From: an uncultured bacterium
GTDB taxonomy: Bacteria; Zixibacteria; MSB-5A5; CAIYYT01
Reading direction: 5' to 3'
DNA length: 32,397 nt
NCBI GenBank assembly: GCA_903930455.1
Contig: CAIYYT010000233.1
Location: forward strand, 1-32,397
Shown: positions 8,835 to 17,924 of the stretch, in pieces
How the letters are laid out: every line of letters begins with the position of its first letter
Position numbering within the stretch: the first letter of the stretch is position 1
Translations under genes and position numbers: made by a program
Notes under the pieces: model-generated
Database searches by the model: none
What the model saw: only the letters and a program-made list of their open reading frames with translations
What the model was told of the DNA's origin: nothing

Positions 8835-10124
8835 ATGAGAGTAACTGTTACATTAGTTCTGCTTCTTGCGTTATTCAGTCTCGCTCCTGCCGCCGAGGAC
8901 TTTCACATTGGAAAGCTCTGCGTCAGTTCCAGCACAGACACTTACGCGCCGGGCGAAGTCATTGTGAAGTTCAAAGATGGCGTGAGCAAACAGCAAGCTA
9001 GTACTGCTCTGGCCGATCTCGGCACGTCAGTGATTTCGACTAATGCTCAAATCGGAATCCAGGTGCTCAATATCCCGGCTGGCAAGACGGTCGAGGAAAT
9101 GGTCGCTACCTTCAGCGCCCGGGCCGACGTGGAATACGCCGAGCCGAACTATATCGCTCATGAGTTTATGACTCCGAACGATCCATACTATGTTTATCAG
9201 TGGCACCTGCCCCTCATTAACATGCCGGCTGCCTGGGATCAATCGACCGGCATACCCGGTGTGGTCGTGGCGGTCATCGACTGCGGTGTGGCCTATGAAA
9301 CTTACGGAGCCTTCACGCAGGCGCCGGATCTGGCAGGCACCCATTTTGTCGCCGGATATGACTATGTCAACAACGACAGCCATCCGGACGATGACTGCGC
9401 CCACGGTACGCACGTAACCGGCACCATCGCGCAGACCACTAATAACAGCCTCGGCGTGGCGGGCGTTGCCTTTAACTGCAGCATCATGCCGATAAAGGTT
9501 CTTGATGCCTCCGGAAACGGCACCTATGCCAATATTGTTAGCGGTATCACTTTCGCAGCCGATAACGGCGCCAAGGTAATTAACATGAGTTTTGGCGGCG
9601 CTTCGGGCTCAACGGCGCTGCAAAACGCCGTAATATATGCTTACAATAAGGGTGTCACGATCGTTTGCGCCGCGGGTAACGCAGGCACCTCCGCCGCACA
9701 GTATCCGGCAGCCTATACGCAGTGTATTTCCGTGTCGGCTGTCCGTTACGACAAGACCTATACGGATTACACTAGCTACGGTTCGACCATCGACATCTGT
9801 GCTCCCGGTGGAGATGTGAATGTCGATCAGAATGGTGACGGATATGTCGACGGCGTGCTGCAGCAGACGCACGACGGAACCAACTACGGGACATTCGGCT
9901 ATTACTTCTACTCAGGCACGTCGATGGCCTGTCCGCACGTGGCCGGCGTGGCCGCCCTGCTGATTTCCAAAAACGGTGGCACCATGACCCCCGCAGCAGT
10001 GCGGGCAGCTCTGCAAAACACCGCGACGGATCTTGGCGCGACGGGTTGGGATCAGTACTATGGCTACGGTCTGGTTAACGCGAGTGCCCGTTGGCATCGA
10101 TTTCCACCACCAATCCGCCAGTAG
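8835..10124 (+). CDS. Secreted subtilisin-like serine protease, catalytic part (frame broken at 3' end)
   Basis: A signal peptide covers about residues 1-20 (MRVTVTLVLLLALFSLAPAA). It is followed by an inhibitor/propeptide-like region with GEVIVKFKDG and VEYAEPNYIAH (to about 110), then a peptidase S8 catalytic domain. The triad is Asp149 (VVAVIDCGV, with Cys where Thr/Ser is usual), His190 (HGTHVTG) and Ser363 (GTSMACPHVAG); Asn282 is the oxyanion residue. GGAAGAG lies about 9 bases before the ATG. After YGYGLVNASA, the normal end of the catalytic domain, the frame runs into unrelated residues and stops at 10124. The true continuation (two PKD domains and a sorting domain) lies in the next frame from about 10088. 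The protease domain is intact. Most likely one gene split by a one-base deletion or sequencing error. Confidence 0.93.
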   Translation: MRVTVTLVLLLALFSLAPAAEDFHIGKLCVSSSTDTYAPGEVIVKFKDGVSKQQASTALADLGTSVISTNAQIGIQVLNIPAGKTVEEMVATFSARADVEYAEPNYIAHEFMTPNDPYYVYQWHLPLINMPAAWDQSTGIPGVVVAVIDCGVAYETYGAFTQAPDLAGTHFVAGYDYVNNDSHPDDDCAHGTHVTGTIAQTTNNSLGVAGVAFNCSIMPIKVLDASGNGTYANIVSGITFAADNGAKVINMSFGGASGSTALQNAVIYAYNKGVTIVCAAGNAGTSAAQYPAAYTQCISVSAVRYDKTYTDYTSYGSTIDICAPGGDVNVDQNGDGYVDGVLQQTHDGTNYGTFGYYFYSGTSMACPHVAGVAALLISKNGGTMTPAAVRAALQNTATDLGATGWDQYYGYGLVNASARWHRFPPPIRQ

Positions 10125-11470
10125 CCGCGTTCTCCGGGACGCCGACTTCGGGCACTTATCCTCTGACGGTTACCTTCACTGACGCGTCAACCTACACTCC
10201 AACCAGCTGGGCTTGGACGTTCGGTGACGGCGGTACTTCGACCGTGCAGAATCCGTCGCATATCTACACGGCGGCGGGCACCTACACGGTAGCGCTGACG
10301 GCGACCAACGCCTACGGTTCAAATACGCTGACTAAGACCGGTTACATTACAGTCACGGCTCCGAACACCAATCCGCCGGTAGCCGCGTTCTCAGGTACAC
10401 CGACTTCGGGTACGATTCCGTTGACGGTTGTTTTCACCGACGCGTCGACCAACACTCCGACTAGTTGGGCCTGGACGTTTGGCGACGGCGGCACTTCGAC
10501 CGTGAAGAATCCGTCGCATATCTACACGACAGCGGGCACCTACACGGTTGCGCTGACGGCCACCAACGCGTATGGTTCAAACACATTGACCAAGACCAGC
10601 TATATCACGGCATCGGCTGTGACTCAGAGTTGTGACGATTTTGCTGATGGCAGTATCACCGACTGGCTTAACAAGAGTGGCACCTGGACGGCGACCGGCG
10701 GTTACATGAAGGGCAATTCGACCACAACCAACGCCAGGACGACTTCGCCGTTCGGTTCATATTCGACGGCCACAATCAACTGCAGCGTGCGGATGAACAC
10801 GGGACGTTCAACAAGAAACGCTCGTATCATCTTTGGCTACACCAATACCACCAACTACCGTTATATTCAGGGTGACGACGTTGGCAACACTTGGAAGATT
10901 TACGAAATGACTAGTGGAAGCTCCAGTCAGAAGGCTTCCTGGTCAAGCACGATCAGCACTGCTACGTGGTATGCAGTCACGGTGAAAGTCTTCTCCACTG
11001 GTGTCGTGTCGGTTGCGGTCGGCGGCACAACGCTCGGATCGTATACCTTCTCGTCGGTCAAGACCGGACCGGTCGGCGTGGGTTACAACAATTCCAATTC
11101 CGACTTCGACAATTTCTGTGTCTCCTCGGCTGTGGCTTCCTCGGACGATTGGGTAGAGATGGGCGAAGGTCAGACTGAAGCGAGCCTTCCGACAACATTC
11201 ACTCTGAATCAGAACCATCCGAACCCGTTCAATCCGAGCACGGTCATCTCTTACTCTCTGACGACGTCAGCCGACGTTGAGTTGGTTGTGATCAACGTGT
11301 TGGGTCAGCAGATTCGGACTTTGGTCAACCAATACCAATCAGCCGGTGATCACAGTGTGGTCTGGGATGGAAGGGACCAGGGCGGCAATCAGGTTGCTTC
11401 CGGTATCTACTTCTATCGCATGACATCGGCCGGCAGTGTTGATACTAAGAAGATGCTTTTGATGAAGTAG
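10088..11470 (+). CDS. Subtilase continuation: two PKD domains, LamG-like domain, sorting domain
   Basis: This is the -1 frame continuation of the preceding subtilase. Its first codons read PLASISTTNPP without a proper start (a TTG at 10091, no ribosome binding site), so it is not expected to be translated alone. Two PKD domains (about 86 residues each, with FTDASTYTPTSWAWTFGDGG and NPSHIYTAAGTYTVALTATN) are followed by about 150 residues of a concanavalin/LamG-like beta-sandwich (CDDFADGSITDWLNKSGTW onward). The last ~85 residues are a FlgD-like/T9SS type A sorting domain: FTLNQNHPNPFNPSTVISY, VVINVLGQQIRTLV, GIYFYRMTSAG and KKMLLMK. PKD domains are typical substrate- or surface-binding parts of secreted proteases. 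If the frame break is real, the released protease would lack its sorting signal. Confidence 0.88.
   Translation, partial: PLASISTTNPPVAAFSGTPTSGTYPLTVTFTDASTYTPTSWAWTFGDGGTSTVQNPSHIYTAAGTYTVALTATNAYGSNTLTKTGYITVTAPNTNPPVAAFSGTPTSGTIPLTVVFTDASTNTPTSWAWTFGDGGTSTVKNPSHIYTTAGTYTVALTATNAYGSNTLTKTSYITASAVTQSCDDFADGSITDWLNKSGTWTATGGYMKGNSTTTNARTTSPFGSYSTATINCSVRMNTGRSTRNARIIFGYTNTTNYRYIQGDDVGNTWKIYEMTSGSSSQKASWSSTISTATWYAVTVKVFSTGVVSVAVGGTTLGSYTFSSVKTGPVGVGYNNSNSDFDNFCVSSAVASSDDWVEMGEGQTEASLPTTFTLNQNHPNPFNPSTVISYSLTTSADVELVVINVLGQQIRTLVNQYQSAGDHSVVWDGRDQGGNQVASGIYFYRMTSAGSVDTKKMLLMK
10111..10626 (+). repeat. Direct repeat of 258 bases encoding the two PKD domains
   Basis: CAATCCGCC plus GTAGCCGCGTTCTC begins at 10111 and again at 10369, an offset of 258 bases (86 codons). 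Similarity stays high over the whole unit, with many differences at third codon positions. It is an in-frame internal duplication and a likely hot spot for recombination or assembly collapse. Confidence 0.85.
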
Positions 11471-11889: not shown

Positions 11890-12963
11890 CTAATGGTAGA
11901 AGGGCTTTGGGTTGATTTTGGCTACTCGAGGGTATTCCCCCCGGCGAGCAGTGAACAGAGAGATGGCTTTGGTTGCGAGATCGATTCTGAAGATCTCGCA
12001 GCACATAAAAGTCTCGTAAACGATACCTATTAACTCCTTGCCGTCCGGCGTAAACCGGCCAAACACCGGCCTAAAGGGACGAGATAATCCTGGGACGGTC
12101 GTGTGATCGATATAGTTGGTCAGGGTTTGGTTCGAGAAATCAAAGATGTCCAGACCCCCGATGTTGGGATTGTCCCAGGGATCATAGTAGGACAGGAAAG
12201 CGCGTTTACCGTCAGGATGCACTGTAAAATCTGTGTAATTGGCGTCTGCAAAGTGGAGGGATTTCATGACTTTTCTCACTTTGAGGCTATCCGTATCAAC
12301 CAGAAAGAGCCCGTTGTAGTAAATCATCAGCATCCATTTACCGTCGCCGCTGAGTTCCATCGGTCCCGCAGGAATATGCCCTCCCAAGCTATCGGACAAC
12401 GCAACTGAGCTTTCAACCGGAGGTGTCGCGCTTAGATCAAGTACATATAGTAGCGTGTCGATGCCGTAGCCAGGGATGCCGTAGTTGATGTAAAGGAGTT
12501 GCTTGGTCGGATGGAATCTCCCCCAGAAGTAGGTAATCGCCTTGTGATAAACAACCGAAAGCGAGGGGACTCGAAGAACCCAAATTTCCTGCGAAGCCTT
12601 TACCACCAGATACTGCTCGTCGGGCGACAATACCACCTCATAGCCTCTATGCTCCCAGTCAGATGCGACTGTATCGCCGGTCGACTCCCTAATTATGCGG
12701 GTCATACGACCGGTCGCGTAAGTGTACTCACCGTCGTGCGAAAAGGCCAGATCTCGGTAAGGCTCGCCGGGATACCAGACAGAATCGAGTATCTCCCCGG
12801 TGCGGGTGTTGAAGGTCAATACAGAGACCGGTGGTTGGACATAGCTGTAGAGTAACTTGTAATACGGTTCCGGTTTGTTGTCAGGACCGCTGGACTTGTC
12901 CGAACAGCCGAAACCTGCCGCCAAAAGCAGCAGAAAGAACAAGAAGAAAAGCCGATTTTTCAC
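11890..12963 (-). CDS. Beta-propeller-like lipoprotein of unknown function
   Basis: The start is taken as GTG at 12963 (VKNRLFFLFFLLLLAAGFGC), with GGGAGGG about 8 bases upstream; an earlier in-frame start has no such site. The 357-residue product has a lipoprotein signal, and Cys20 in GFGCSDKSSGPD is the probable lipidated residue, though the lipobox is not classical (Gly/Phe before Gly-Cys). The rest shows repeated beta-strand blocks such as DLAFSHDGEYTYATGR, EVVLSPDEQYLVVK, MELSGDGKWMLMIYYN, FTVHPDGKRAFLSYYD and GRFTPDGKELIGIVYE, spaced like blades of a YncE/WD40-like propeller (SPDG-type turns). Likely anchored in a membrane and facing the periplasm or surface. A tiny coupled ORF follows. 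Confidence 0.78.
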   Translation of the reverse strand: MKNRLFFLFFLLLLAAGFGCSDKSSGPDNKPEPYYKLLYSYVQPPVSVLTFNTRTGEILDSVWYPGEPYRDLAFSHDGEYTYATGRMTRIIRESTGDTVASDWEHRGYEVVLSPDEQYLVVKASQEIWVLRVPSLSVVYHKAITYFWGRFHPTKQLLYINYGIPGYGIDTLLYVLDLSATPPVESSVALSDSLGGHIPAGPMELSGDGKWMLMIYYNGLFLVDTDSLKVRKVMKSLHFADANYTDFTVHPDGKRAFLSYYDPWDNPNIGGLDIFDFSNQTLTNYIDHTTVPGLSRPFRPVFGRFTPDGKELIGIVYETFMCCEIFRIDLATKAISLFTARRGEYPRVAKINPKPFYH

Positions 12964-13002
12964 ATAGATACCCTCCCATGGGTGGTTGATACATATCATC
13001 CG

Positions 13003-13190: not shown

Positions 13191-13231
13191 AAAAAAACCG
13201 TGTCAAAGCTCCCCAACTAGCTCTGACACGG
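13191..13231 (-). terminator. Strong Rho-independent terminator
   Basis: On the minus strand the arms CCGTGTCA and TGACACGG (13224-13231 and 13198-13205) carry a second internal AGCT/AGCT pairing and are followed by seven T (13197-13191). It is the best intrinsic terminator in the window. It ends the predicted small RNA and also lies 218 bases downstream of cysK. Confidence 0.9.
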
Positions 13232-13303
13232 ACGGACTGTAAATCCCCGCTTTTAGCCCCGAAATCTCTTGCCCGTTTTGTCGCCACCCCTTTGGATTCT
13301 TGC
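13191..13303 (-). ncRNA. Candidate sigma-54-driven small RNA (~113 nt)
   Basis: A near-consensus sigma-54 promoter on the minus strand (13314-13330) points into a stretch with no plausible gene, which ends in a strong intrinsic terminator (13191-13231). The predicted start is near 13303, 12 bases past the -12 element, giving an RNA of about 113 nt. It starts GGGCAAGAATCC and repeats GGGCAAGA 31 bases later. It has four GGGG runs (after AAA, TTC, AGC and TT) and a possible long-range pairing GAAUCC with GGAUUU. It matches no RNA family I recognise. The codirectional cysK gene ends 145 bases upstream, so the RNA is probably a separate unit rather than its 3' UTR. The promoter and terminator are seen; the RNA itself is inferred. 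Confidence 0.55.
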
Positions 13304-13313
13304 CCATTGTTTA

Positions 13314-13330
13314 TGCAATGCTCGTGCCAA
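13314..13330 (-). promoter_or_regulatory. Sigma-54 (RpoN) promoter
   Basis: Minus strand TTGGCACGAGCATTGCA. It has GG at -25/-24, exactly ten bases, then GC at -13/-12, and agrees with TGGCAC-N5-TTGCA at nearly every position. An inverted repeat GCCAAAC/GTTTGGC (13326-13332 and 13356-13362) overlaps and lies just upstream of the -24 element. No activator (bEBP) gene is in the window. Confidence 0.75.
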
Positions 13331-13448
13331 ACTCTGTGGGAATTTGTAACCGTTTGTTTGGCAATGAGAACGAACATAAATCAAGCGCGAGAGCGGACGC
13401 GGTTTTCTGGACTAATACCTGAGCGGAACAAACTTTGAAACAATCGTT

Positions 13449-14384
13449 TCAGTCTGATGACAGTTCGGTGTAGGTGGGAGTAGAGAGATAGCGCTCACCG
13501 GTATCGCAAACAAAGGTGACGATCAGCTTGCCCTTGCTTTCAGGTCGTGAAGCAATTCTGATTGCCACGGCAACATTGGCGCCAGCCGAAATGCCCATCA
13601 GGATGCCTTCCTGACGGACGACTTTGCGAGTGATTTCAATGGCTTCGTCGTTTTCCACGGTCAAGATTTCGTCAGCAAGTTCCTGCTCGAAAATTCCCGG
13701 TTTGAAGCCGGCGCCGATTCCCTGAATGGGGTGCGGCCCTCGGATGCCTTTGGTCAGAAAGGGGGACGCTGCCGGTTCAACAGCGATCATCTGCAGACCC
13801 GGTTTGCGGTTTTTTAAAACTCTGGCGCAACCGGTGAACGTGCCACCGGTGCCGATTCCCGATACGACAACGTCAACTTTGCCGTCGGTGTCATTCCAGA
13901 TTTCTTCGGCGGTAGTTTTGGCATGAATCTCCGGATTGGCCGGGTTGTTGAACTGCTGCGGCATGTAATACTTTGCGTCACCCGCAGCCAACTCTTCGGC
14001 GCGTTTGACGGCTCCGGGCATTCCTTCCGGGCCAGGTGTCAGAACCAATTCGGCGCCAAACGCCTTGAGCAGATTGCGTCTTTCAACCGACATGGTCTCA
14101 GGCATAAAGAGCAATAAACGATAGCCCTTGATCGCACAGACAAATGCCAGCGCAATACCGGTGTTGCCGGAGGTTGGTTCGACAATGATCGTATCCTTTC
14201 TGATCTTGCCCTGTCGTTCGGCGGCTTCAATCATTGCTAAGCCGATACGGTCCTTCACCGAAGAGCAGGGATTAAACGATTCCATCTTGCCGACGACACG
14301 ACCGGGCAGGCCACCTGCCACACGGTCAAAGAAAACCATGGGCGTGTTTCCGATCAAATCGGTAATGCAATGTGCGATCTTCAT
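13449..14384 (-). CDS. cysK: Cysteine synthase (O-acetylserine sulfhydrylase)
   Basis: A PLP enzyme that makes cysteine from O-acetylserine and sulfide in the cytoplasm. 311 residues, the usual length. Seen: [11 protein letters not shown] at the N-terminus, SSVKDRIG with the PLP-binding Lys at about residue 44, [11 protein letters not shown] (substrate loop), [10 protein letters not shown] (phosphate cup) and [11 protein letters not shown] near the C-terminus. AGGAGAG lies 5-6 bases before the ATG. It follows an Rrf2-type regulator gene by 19 bases, so the two are cotranscribed. Cystathionine beta-synthase-like enzymes share the fold, but length and motifs fit CysK/CysM better. Confidence 0.95.
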
Positions 14385-14403: not shown

Positions 14404-14838
14404 TCAAATAAAGTACATCTCTGATGACAGACCGGCTGACTGGATAATGTCGGCCAAGGTTATCGATCGGAGATTAATCTGCAGTTGCTCTAACTGGCTG
14501 TCTAAAACCTTGATAAGCGTCTGGCCAACAGGGTCTCCGTTGTTCATTCGCTCCGACAGTGAGGCTGGCACGGCAAATTCGGACGCTCCTTCGCAGGCGA
14601 AAATCACGTCCGCCAAGGTGATTTGATCGGGCGAACGAGCCAGATAATAGCCTCCGCCTGCGCCTCGGACTGACGTGACAATCTCGGAGGCCTTCAGGCG
14701 CGAAAAGATCAATTCCAGAAACCGCAAAGGAATATTCTGGCCGGTAGCGATGTCTTTGACACCCACATGGCCGCCGCGAGCATTGATCGCCAGATGGACC
14801 AAAGCGCGTATTCCGTAAAAAGACTTGTTCGAAATCAT
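14404..14838 (-). CDS. Rrf2 family transcriptional regulator (CymR-like)
   Basis: 144 residues with an N-terminal winged helix: [13 protein letters not shown], then [26 protein letters not shown] (recognition region) and [23 protein letters not shown], the Rrf2 hallmark. The three closely spaced cysteines that hold the Fe-S cluster in IscR/NsrR are absent; only Cys in FACEGASEF is seen. It therefore looks like the cluster-free CymR/cysteine-metabolism branch. CAGGAGAAT precedes the ATG. Cotranscription with cysK fits the established CymR-CysK partnership of Firmicutes, where CysK binds the regulator and reports cysteine status; a parallel role here is inference. A 10-base palindrome AGTCCGGACT (14864-14873) just upstream could be its own operator. 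Confidence 0.88.
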
Positions 14839-15268
14839 ATTCTCCTGATTGCAATACGACGCTAGTCCGGACTTGGTGAGAGAAATTCCCTAATCCCATC
14901 GGAAAAAGTGCAGTTAGGCGCTGCCAATAACTCTGGCTGGGCGTATGCGAGGATCGGCCATTCGGACCCGCGACGACTTCGGCCGGCTGAGTCCCGCTCT
15001 GACTTGTGTTGGGCTGACAGGCATGATCTGTGTTGGAGGTTGATGCGGACTCAGATCACCGGAGTCTCAGTCCGGGCATTGTAAACTAGTCCCGCAGGTG
15101 CACTTTTTCACTTGACAAAGCAGACTGGATTTGCGACATTAAGAATGCGATCAGGGTGGGGACCGTGACAGATCTATTTTTTGGACAGAAAACATAGATA
15201 AGCTACCAGCGAGTTTGTTCTCGCCGGCCTTGATTTTCATAACGATTTGTCTGCAAGGAGGTAGGCGT
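14839..15268. other. Intergenic region between the Rrf2 gene and the double-C39 gene
   Basis: Divergent promoters are expected here. On the Rrf2 side, AGTCCGGACT (14864-14873) is a perfect palindrome. In the middle, CCGGA/TCCGG (15059-15075) and GACTC/GAGTC pairings make a small structured stretch. On the other side lie the promoter at 15112-15140 and, in the leader, a GCGAG/CTCGC hairpin (15209-15224). No gene or known RNA was recognised. Confidence 0.4.
15112..15140 (+). promoter_or_regulatory. Sigma-70-type promoter of the double-C39 gene
   Basis: TTGACA (15112-15117), 17 bases, then GACATT (15135-15140). The perfect -35 with a weak xACATT -10 closely matches the promoter of the other C39/dockerin gene (TTGACA-17-TACATT), suggesting common use of the same promoter class. 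The leader to the ATG is about 120 bases. Confidence 0.6.
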
Positions 15269-17875
15269 ATGCGGGCAAAAATGATACTGCTTGTCGGTGC
15301 GTTGATCGCCATGGCTTTGGACATGGCGTTTACGTTGGCAGCCGACACGAGTCAAAATACTGCGAACGTTTCCAGCTCTCCCCAGGACTGGTATTACAAG
15401 TCGGGGTCTGTTGACTACTGCCCCAACGGCATGCCGGATCTTGATCAGAAGCAGGACTTCACCTGGCCCCCGGATGGCGTGGTGGACCCGGGCTACTGCG
15501 GTCCGGTTGCAGTAGCCAACTGTTTCTGGTGGTTTGACTCCAAATTCGAGCCCAACCCTATTGCTCCTCCAATTTACAATGACGGCTATCCGCTCGTCCA
15601 GACCTATGCGACTATGCCGCCGATCTGGGATGATCACGATTCTCAGAACGCCGTTCCCTTCATCCGGGCTCTGGGTGTTTCCTTCAACACAAATATGGCC
15701 GGACCGGGAACAGGAACTAACATCAATGACATGCATGCGGGCATCCAGGCATGGTTGCACTCGAGGCTACTCGACAATGACTACACAGTGAATCTCTACG
15801 ATTGCCAGGCCCTCAATTGGAATTTTCTGGCGCACGAAGTGCATCGTAGCCAAGATGTGATCTTGCTGATCGGTTTCTATGTCTCCGCCAATGGTAACCC
15901 GTTAGAGTGCTGTCGCATTGGTGGGCACTATGTTACAGTGGCCGGCGTTGACTCGGCCAATAACAGAATAGCCCTCTCCGATCCGGATCTAGACCTCACT
16001 CCTTTGGGGGGATCTCATAATGACGCGGCCAACGTCTCACACGACATCTATGATATGGCAACGATGGGGCCGATGATGTGTGAGCCGCACGCCGGCTGTC
16101 TGTTTATGCCGGGATATCCGGTTGCACAGATCGCCTATGATTTCTATGGTCAGAACGGTGGTACGACTTGTCAGGGGACAGTGCCGGGGCCAATGTGGGC
16201 GATTGTCGAGTACGCAGAGATTATCTGTCCGACACATGAACCCATTAAAACCTGTGAATACTACAAACCGGGTTATCCCGACTACGCACCAAACGGTATG
16301 CCCGACTTCGACCAGAAGCAAGACGGTTGGGTCGGTTGGAACGGCGGTTGGAGCTTCTGTGGGCCGGTAGCTGCACTAAACTGCCTCTGGTGGTTCGATT
16401 CCAAATTCGAGACTAACACCACACCGCCGCCAGCAAATATCGACAACTATCCGTTGCTGCAGAACCCGTCGCTTACTATGGATGACCATGATGCTTCCAC
16501 TGTCATCAACTACATCAACACGCTGGCGCCAATGATGGGTTGTTTGCCGGGACCGGCAGGTTTCGGTACAAATATCAACCAGATGGTCACTGGTTTGCAG
16601 CAGTGGATCGACAATGCCGGACTGCACAAGAACTATGCCATTTCCATGTTCCCTGCGCCGACTTTCCCGCTGATCCGCGACAGTATCCTGCACAGTCAGG
16701 ACGTGATCCTGCTCTTGGGCTTCTGGCAGGAGGACCCCACCGGCCTACCACCATACTGCACCCGCATAGGTGGTCACTGGGTTACGGCGGCTGGTGTCTG
16801 CACAACGTCGACGAGAATCTGCATCTCTGATCCCTATTTCAACCACAACGAAGGTGAGCCACCTTTGGGCTTGCATGGTTCAGCAGTACACAACGATGCA
16901 CAACTTGTCTCAGGGCCTCATGGGACGATTAACCATGATGGCTATACGCTGGGCCCGCATCAATTTCTGTGTCCGCAGTTGCCAGTGCCACTTGGTTTGG
17001 AAGTGCTCGATTATCCCGACAGTTTGCCTTACGTCCTGCAGTTCGAGCGGATGAATCAGCCGGTCGACCCGCCGTTGGTCGGGGTTCCAAACCCGGCATT
17101 ACCAGTCTACACTATGATCGAGTGGGCAGTCGTTGTCTGTCCGAAGAAGCCATGTCCGGCAGGACCGGCATACGGCGACAGCACGAAAACGGACCCATGT
17201 TTGACAATCTGTCCAAAGTCGGACGCTGTGTTTAGAGTCACTGAGAAAGACAGTTGCGGCAACCTGATTTGCGATCTGAACGGCACCTGGCTTGACTTCA
17301 GTCAGTGTCCCGCTGTGCCTTGCCCCACGGAAGAACCGGCGTGGCCGAGGGTATTTCCCGACTCTTGTCGTGATGGTGTGCATTACTTCAACGTAGATGC
17401 CAGCTTGTTGGGGTGCGTCAACTGCCAGGCGGGACTGATCATCAACGGTCAGTTCTGGCGGGCAATTCCGGCGTACTTCTTCGATGTCAATGGAGATCTC
17501 TGCGTCACTCCAAACGACTTCGTCGCGGGCGTCTGCAACGACTATGACTGCAACGGCATTGTCGACAACACCGATCTGGCGATCTTCGCTCAGCATCTTG
17601 GGCATTGCTGTCCGACCTGCAACTGCAAGCCGGGCAATGCCAATGGTGATGCCATGACTGACATTTCTGATGTTGTGTACCTGATCGCTTACATCTTCAG
17701 TGGCGGTCTGGCCCCGACACCGTACCCGATCTGTTCCGGCGACGCCAACTGCGATTGTGCGGTGGACATCTCAGATGTAGTTTACCTGATCGCATACATC
17801 TTTAGTGGTGGCAATGCCCCATGCACGTGTGACGAGTGGATATCCACTACCAAATGCGGTCTGCCTTTGAGGTAG
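15269..17875 (+). CDS. Secreted protein with two C39-like domains and dockerin repeats
   Basis: Start at 15269 (MRAKMILLVGALIAM) because AAGGAGGT precedes it; an in-frame start 54 bases earlier lacks a ribosome binding site. 868 residues with a signal peptide (about 1-25). Two homologous halves each keep a Cys-His-Asp set. Domain 1 has Cys77 (GYCGPVAVANCFWWFDSKFE), His220 (RIGGHYVTVAGV) and Asp238 (LSDPD). Domain 2 has Cys364 (SFCGPVAALNCLWWFDSKFE), His503 (RIGGHWVTAAGV) and Asp521 (ISDPY). The pattern fits papain-like, C39-type cysteine peptidases. A cysteine-rich stretch follows, then EF-hand/dockerin-like repeats (FDVNGDLCVTPNDFV; twice DISDVVYLIAYIFSGG). Likely exported and surface- or complex-bound through the dockerins. 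No experimental relative is known to me; the peptidase activity is inferred. Confidence 0.82.
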   Translation: MRAKMILLVGALIAMALDMAFTLAADTSQNTANVSSSPQDWYYKSGSVDYCPNGMPDLDQKQDFTWPPDGVVDPGYCGPVAVANCFWWFDSKFEPNPIAPPIYNDGYPLVQTYATMPPIWDDHDSQNAVPFIRALGVSFNTNMAGPGTGTNINDMHAGIQAWLHSRLLDNDYTVNLYDCQALNWNFLAHEVHRSQDVILLIGFYVSANGNPLECCRIGGHYVTVAGVDSANNRIALSDPDLDLTPLGGSHNDAANVSHDIYDMATMGPMMCEPHAGCLFMPGYPVAQIAYDFYGQNGGTTCQGTVPGPMWAIVEYAEIICPTHEPIKTCEYYKPGYPDYAPNGMPDFDQKQDGWVGWNGGWSFCGPVAALNCLWWFDSKFETNTTPPPANIDNYPLLQNPSLTMDDHDASTVINYINTLAPMMGCLPGPAGFGTNINQMVTGLQQWIDNAGLHKNYAISMFPAPTFPLIRDSILHSQDVILLLGFWQEDPTGLPPYCTRIGGHWVTAAGVCTTSTRICISDPYFNHNEGEPPLGLHGSAVHNDAQLVSGPHGTINHDGYTLGPHQFLCPQLPVPLGLEVLDYPDSLPYVLQFERMNQPVDPPLVGVPNPALPVYTMIEWAVVVCPKKPCPAGPAYGDSTKTDPCLTICPKSDAVFRVTEKDSCGNLICDLNGTWLDFSQCPAVPCPTEEPAWPRVFPDSCRDGVHYFNVDASLLGCVNCQAGLIINGQFWRAIPAYFFDVNGDLCVTPNDFVAGVCNDYDCNGIVDNTDLAIFAQHLGHCCPTCNCKPGNANGDAMTDISDVVYLIAYIFSGGLAPTPYPICSGDANCDCAVDISDVVYLIAYIFSGGNAPCTCDEWISTTKCGLPLR

Positions 17876-17894: not shown

Positions 17895-17924
17895 AAAGCC
17901 GCTCCCTTGGGGCGGCTTTTTTTG
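17895..17924 (+). terminator. Rho-independent terminator
   Basis: AAAGCCGC (17895-17902) pairs with GCGGCTTT (17912-17919), with an inner CCC/GGG pairing, and seven T follow (17917-17923). It lies 20 bases after the stop of the double-C39 gene. Confidence 0.92.

Follow-up and report, generated by a model that had tools for sequence, protein, structure and literature searches.

A predicted sigma-54-dependent small RNA gene downstream of cysK in an uncultured Zixibacteria bacterium

The window analyzed in this work is a single stretch of 32,397 nucleotides from an uncultured Zixibacteria bacterium. On its minus strand, a predicted small RNA gene of about 113 nt is located on the 3' side of cysK (13191..13303), its start being placed from the spacing of the sigma-54 promoter and its end from the terminal T run. 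The conserved upstream neighbor, cysK (13449..14384, minus strand), encodes cysteine synthase A; it matches TIGR01139 with 425 bits, above the cut-off, and the Pfam family PALP. The nearest named relative of this CysK belongs to a Candidatus Zixiibacteriota MAG, with 66% CysK identity. Upstream of cysK is a gene for an Rrf2-family regulator (14404..14838, minus strand; TIGR00738 above the cut-off). The IscR and CymR models match this regulator well below their cut-offs, and the protein could therefore be a separate type of cysteine- or iron-sulfur-responsive repressor. The gene on the other side of the small RNA (11890-12999) encodes a short protein that is secreted or lipoprotein-like and matched no Pfam or NCBIfam family. 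Elsewhere in the window, the reading frame at 15215-17875 (plus strand) encodes 886 aa ending in a dockerin domain at the C terminus, and its neighbors include subtilase and PKD/FlgD-Ig secreted proteins (8835-11470).

The promoter of the predicted gene, TTGGCACGAGCATTGCA (13330-13314, minus strand), contains the -24 GG and the -12 GC at a distance of 10 bases and shows no mismatch across the 13 positions of the sigma-54 consensus. The first-pass annotation of this DNA had described a near-perfect sigma-54 promoter here, and the description is borne out. TTGGCACGAGCATTGCA is the only sigma-54 match in the window with fewer than two mismatches. At the level of the 3.77-Mb genome, the pattern TTGGCAYGN4TTGCA has three matches, TTGGCACGAGCATTGCA among them, compared with zero for a reversed control pattern. 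A search for rpoN and its activators, proposed earlier as a check, was positive: rpoN is encoded in the genome (192 bits), and the sigma-54 activator domain has 24 matches, 19 of them strong activator ATPases. The spacing of the sigma-54 promoter places +1 near 13303, and the first copy of the repeat GGGCAAGA would therefore straddle +1. Both copies of this repeat (13305 and 13274) are present as first reported, but they are not kept in relatives and the importance given to them is unsupported. An inverted repeat at the -24 box, TGCCAAAC/GTTTGGCA (13363 and 13332), likewise exists in the window but is not kept in relatives, and a role for it is equally unsupported.

The terminator hairpin, CCGTGTCAGAGCT-AGTTGGGG-AGCTTTGACACGG (13198..13231, minus strand), starts approximately 72 nt past the inferred +1. 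It consists of a 13-bp stem with 7 GC pairs and a GTTGGGG loop, and is followed by a run of 7 T (13191..13197, minus strand). This stem exceeds that of every other terminator-like site in the window; the next longest that has a clean run of T, at 17895 on the plus strand, has 11 bp. The earlier statement that about 113 bases lead to the best intrinsic terminator of the window is upheld. In the four family members that carry the gene, four pairs of the stem have changed on both sides, which are compensating substitutions. In this four-member alignment 94% of the cells of the stem are paired, compared with 88% in shuffles, of which 1 in 500 was as good, and the pairing collapses once the strands are slid against each other. 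The GUUGGGG terminator loop is found in three genomes.

Relatives of the predicted gene were found by reading downstream of orthologous cysK genes. An array of cysK, sigma-54 promoter, G/A-rich RNA of 109-144 nt and terminator was detected in the same place in four relatives, namely G004, G002 and G003 of the same family and G017 of another family in the same class. Conservation in relatives had been suggested as a check on the gene, and both promoter and terminator prove to be kept at the cysK locus in all four. This conservation is read from five sequences, with G017 as the single example beyond the family; the sole congener, G001, was left out, its contig stopping within cysK. Among the carriers, most of the RNA has diverged, as have its flanks, with a mean column identity of 55% across the five-sequence alignment, while the -24/-12 element, the terminator stem and the AAAGGG motifs persist. 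In particular, GGCAC-N5-TTGC is identical in all five genomes having the array, which represent two families. When 50 cysK-downstream regions were scored against the sigma-54 consensus, five reached 11-13 of 13 and the rest stayed at 9 or below. G040, a congener of G017, does not have the small RNA.

Wider searches gave few further matches. In a DNA search of 58 relatives, the terminator part of G004 was the only related match; a 24-base match in G011 was dropped, being on the opposite strand and inside an apparent coding region. A covariance model was built from the four family sequences and applied to 132 genomes. Its best non-training match was G017, at the cysK locus (27.5 bits, E = 0.0012), and the next matches followed at 27.3 bits and below. 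The covariance search envisaged by the first-pass annotation recovered the locus in G017, but its margin over unrelated matches was tiny; the weak matches inspected by eye proved to be chance or promoters of protein genes that resemble sigma-54 promoters. Position, promoter, palindrome (described below) and terminator together make the case for G017, for which the model alone would be insufficient. The same search indicated one copy of the small RNA per genome. A combined promoter and AAAGGG pattern was also searched in the 132 genomes, giving 30 readable non-family loci, and those inspected were promoters or reading frames of protein genes, not kin of the small RNA. As a separate observation, near-perfect sigma-54-like promoters were seen by eye directly before apparent small heat-shock protein genes in G047 and G011 (L194, L196). 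The Rfam covariance models detected no family at the gathering threshold in the whole window, and a permissive Rfam scan of the locus returned only a chance match, SOX2OT_exon3, with 10 bits.

A further element, the palindrome TGAAACGATTGTTTCA (13436..13451, minus strand), overlaps the stop codon of cysK and is a putative binding site (UAS) for a sigma-54 activator. In the general form TGAAAC-N4-GTTTCA, it starts at or just past the cysK stop, about 120-134 bp upstream of the promoter; counted to GGCAC the distance is 123-134 bp across the genomes, and in the window the -24 box is about 120 bp away. It is perfect in the window genome (G000) and G004, and has 1 mismatch in G017 and 2 mismatches in G002; the copy in G003 is imperfect, TGAAAC-N5-GGTTCA, with a 5-base spacer. 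A palindrome with at most two mismatches is present in four of the five sigma-54-positive regions and the regions of the 50 without the sigma-54 element all have at least three mismatches, in a test that was not blind, the palindrome having been spotted in the five array sequences before scoring; the control regions were not selected for it. Approximately 45 other cysK loci lack both the sigma-54 element and the palindrome. The genome has just one further perfect copy, inside a reading frame, and no copies were found near the sigma-54 activator genes of the genome. The position of the palindrome fits that of an activator-binding site of a sigma-54 promoter, and this is probably its function.

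The switch and the stop signal have been kept in four relatives while their surroundings changed; for this reason the product is very probably a real regulatory RNA. As far as sequence comparison can tell, the presence of a genuine sigma-54 small RNA gene at this locus can be proposed with high confidence. Promoter, terminator, their conservation and their co-occurrence are computed, and from these we infer transcription of the small RNA. The RNA would form a new family within a known kind, with a high probability of being a real feature, and includes so far one Zixibacteria family and one outlier.

The best-conserved part of the RNA body is a 5' element consisting of CAAGA and AAAGGGG (13284..13302, minus strand), in which AAAGGG(G) is predicted to be in a loop or single-stranded. 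In single-sequence folds, three of the four family members form a small 5' hairpin that exposes AAAG(G), and GUCCG closes another hairpin; covariation upstream of the terminator gave no support for internal structure. The four GGGG runs first reported for the RNA are all present, at 13290, 13260, 13248 and 13214. AAAGGG occurs 9 times in the five RNAs, compared with 1.4-1.7 in dinucleotide shuffles, and 0 of 1000 shuffles had as many, for a motif that was chosen by eye from the sequences later tested. Four of the nine copies belong to G003, and the other four RNAs contain one or two each.

The over-representation of AAAGGG may also be explained by a protein decoy, in which the repeated AAAGGGG titrates an RNA-binding protein as CrcZ does Hfq, or CsrB and RsmZ do CsrA. 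This is the main rival explanation, and two further facts are in its favor: each of the five family genomes encodes CsrA, and CrcZ itself is switched on by CbrB from a promoter that depends on RpoN (PMC4063720). It is nevertheless unlikely. The CsrA motif ANGGA is not enriched, either in the body (4 vs 4.6 expected) or at full length (6 vs 5.2), and neither is GGA in the RNA body (10 vs 14.6 expected). With neither motif enriched, a CsrA sponge of the CsrB/RsmZ type was rejected by motif, although CsrA is present. Moreover, the csrA of G004 sits in a flagellar cluster, between flgK and flgL (both named by reading the sequence; CsrA was confirmed). Hfq (PF17209) was found in none of the five family genomes by a search that finds it in all five control genomes (E. 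coli, B. subtilis and others). An Hfq decoy of the CrcZ type was rejected on this result and on the motif, which is AAAGGGG, and an Hfq-dependent base-pairing small RNA was rejected on the same search. The low number of AAAGGG copies in four of the five RNAs also argues against a decoy.

The preferred reading is a stand-alone, sigma-54-dependent, Hfq-independent small RNA acting in trans, whose AAAGGGG motifs pair with mRNAs. In its entirety this reading is moderately probable; the odds that the RNA works by pairing with mRNAs are about even. A bacterial enhancer-binding protein would bind the TGAAAC-N4-GTTTCA palindrome about 120-134 bp upstream, and the bound activator would remodel the sigma-54 RNA polymerase at the -24/-12 element. 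The G/A-rich RNA of about 113 nt would then be made and ended at the strong intrinsic terminator, where the rrf2-cysK transcript probably stops as well. Its action would be in trans and without Hfq, and its exposed AAAGGGG motifs, together with the GUUGGGG loop in three genomes, would most likely pair with C/U-rich stretches of mRNA targets. In three of the five genomes, pairing with the cysK start region did not exceed that of shuffled RNA, and in the remaining two it was only somewhat better, the start used for G003 being doubtful. Complementarity of the RNA to the 16S anti-Shine-Dalgarno end amounts to about -11 to -14 kcal/mol, a figure without a control that was not used. Nitrogen or carbon status, the signal suggested at first, found no evidence; the conserved neighbor is a cysteine gene. 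More tentatively, the repeated AAAGGGG might dock an undescribed RNA-binding protein, or the G-rich loops might pair with C-rich mRNA sites, linking a two-component signal to sulfur/cysteine physiology.

Another explanation is that the RNA is mainly the processed 3' end of the rrf2-cysK transcript, a 3'-UTR RNA whose level follows cysteine control and for which the sigma-54 promoter is a second input. From the cysK stop to the promoter, no terminator-like site is present on the minus strand of the window, so that read-through from cysK into the RNA is likely. The small RNA may thus double as the 3' terminus of the transcript from cysK, and in that case would be joined to cysteine control. In addition, cysK is the conserved neighbor in all five genomes, and a 3'-UTR small RNA of a similar sort has been reported for the glutamine synthetase mRNA (PMC9731577). 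This origin is quite unlikely all the same, as the sigma-54 element is conserved far better than the remaining intergenic region. In G004, moreover, a strong inverted repeat, AGCCTGTTGCA...TGCAACAGGCT (L005, ~1345-1372), which is absent from the window, lies between cysK and the sigma-54 promoter.

It is very improbable that the RNA serves the gene downstream as a leader or attenuator, or that it codes for a short protein. The downstream gene is different in each genome examined (no Pfam family in the window, Methyltransf_4 in G004, TGT in G003 and an ACT-like gene below the cut-off in G017) and lies beyond the terminator; because of this difference, the RNA is not considered a leader. Some frames are open through the RNA, such as an ATG frame of the window that starts before +1, but none of the ORFs inside the RNA has a suitably spaced ribosome-binding site, and each one ends early or else continues through the terminator. 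Those starting within the RNA share no frame, and their sequences and lengths differ among the genomes. The absence of a conserved ORF across the five RNAs agrees with the initial view that no protein is plausible here. A KGWR-type protein frame common to G000 and G002 was rejected because its start precedes +1 and the corresponding frame of G003 stops (UGG-UAA). A fortuitous sigma-54 match near an operon terminator is hardly credible: the window contains sigma-54-like sites at 2-3 mismatches about as often as shuffles do, but this element has zero mismatches, is conserved in position in five genomes and co-occurs with the palindrome.

Small RNAs under sigma-54 control are known from several bacteria. 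The Qrr RNAs are sigma-54-dependent and activator-driven, end in an intrinsic terminator and depend on Hfq; NrsZ is also sigma-54-dependent. In Vibrio, Qrr1-4 are under the control of LuxO and are multicopy (PMC7602753). The predicted RNA would resemble them in its activator-driven promoter and intrinsic terminator, but it is present in one copy, Hfq was not found in the family and there is no Rfam match. GlmY of Enterobacteria (GlrR) and NrsZ of P. aeruginosa (NtrC) are controlled by two-component activators that belong to the sigma-54 type (PMC7602753). The predicted RNA is similar in type of control, without a sequence match to either at Rfam thresholds, and may differ from them in neighbor, signal and targets. 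CrcZ of Pseudomonas (CbrB, RpoN) is, like the predicted RNA, a stand-alone small RNA gene with an activator-driven sigma-54 promoter (PMC4063720). However, CrcZ is a 407-nt RNA that titrates Hfq through six A-rich stretches (PMC4063720), whereas the window RNA is about 113 nt and G/A-rich, in a family where Hfq was not found. The sX13 RNA of Xanthomonas is 115 nt in length, independent of Hfq and carries homopolymer motifs in its loops (PMC3771888). The window RNA is similar in length, in its homopolymer motifs and in its probable independence of Hfq. The polarity is reversed, however: the C-rich loops of sX13 pair with mRNA sites rich in G, while the motifs of the window RNA are G-rich. Moreover, sX13 is not defined by a sigma-54 promoter.

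No small RNA from Zixibacteria was found described in the literature searched. If real, the RNA would open a first way into the RNA regulation of a phylum where five genomes show no Hfq. The candidate activator site could lead to the activator among the 19 encoded in the genome, and hence to the signal.

In several Zixibacteria without the small RNA (L185, L015, L016, L042), tRNA-Ser(GCU) is located just downstream of cysK. In G017 (L017), the small RNA and, by position, the ACT-like gene lie between cysK and tRNA-Ser(GCU). A small RNA cassette may have been inserted at this cysK/tRNA-Ser(GCU) site, or lost elsewhere. The cysK 3' regions of G040 and DSEQ01000028.1 (Zixiibacteriota SpSt-1246) are identical across the stretch compared (L185, L042), suggesting that both probably represent one genome or two closely similar ones.
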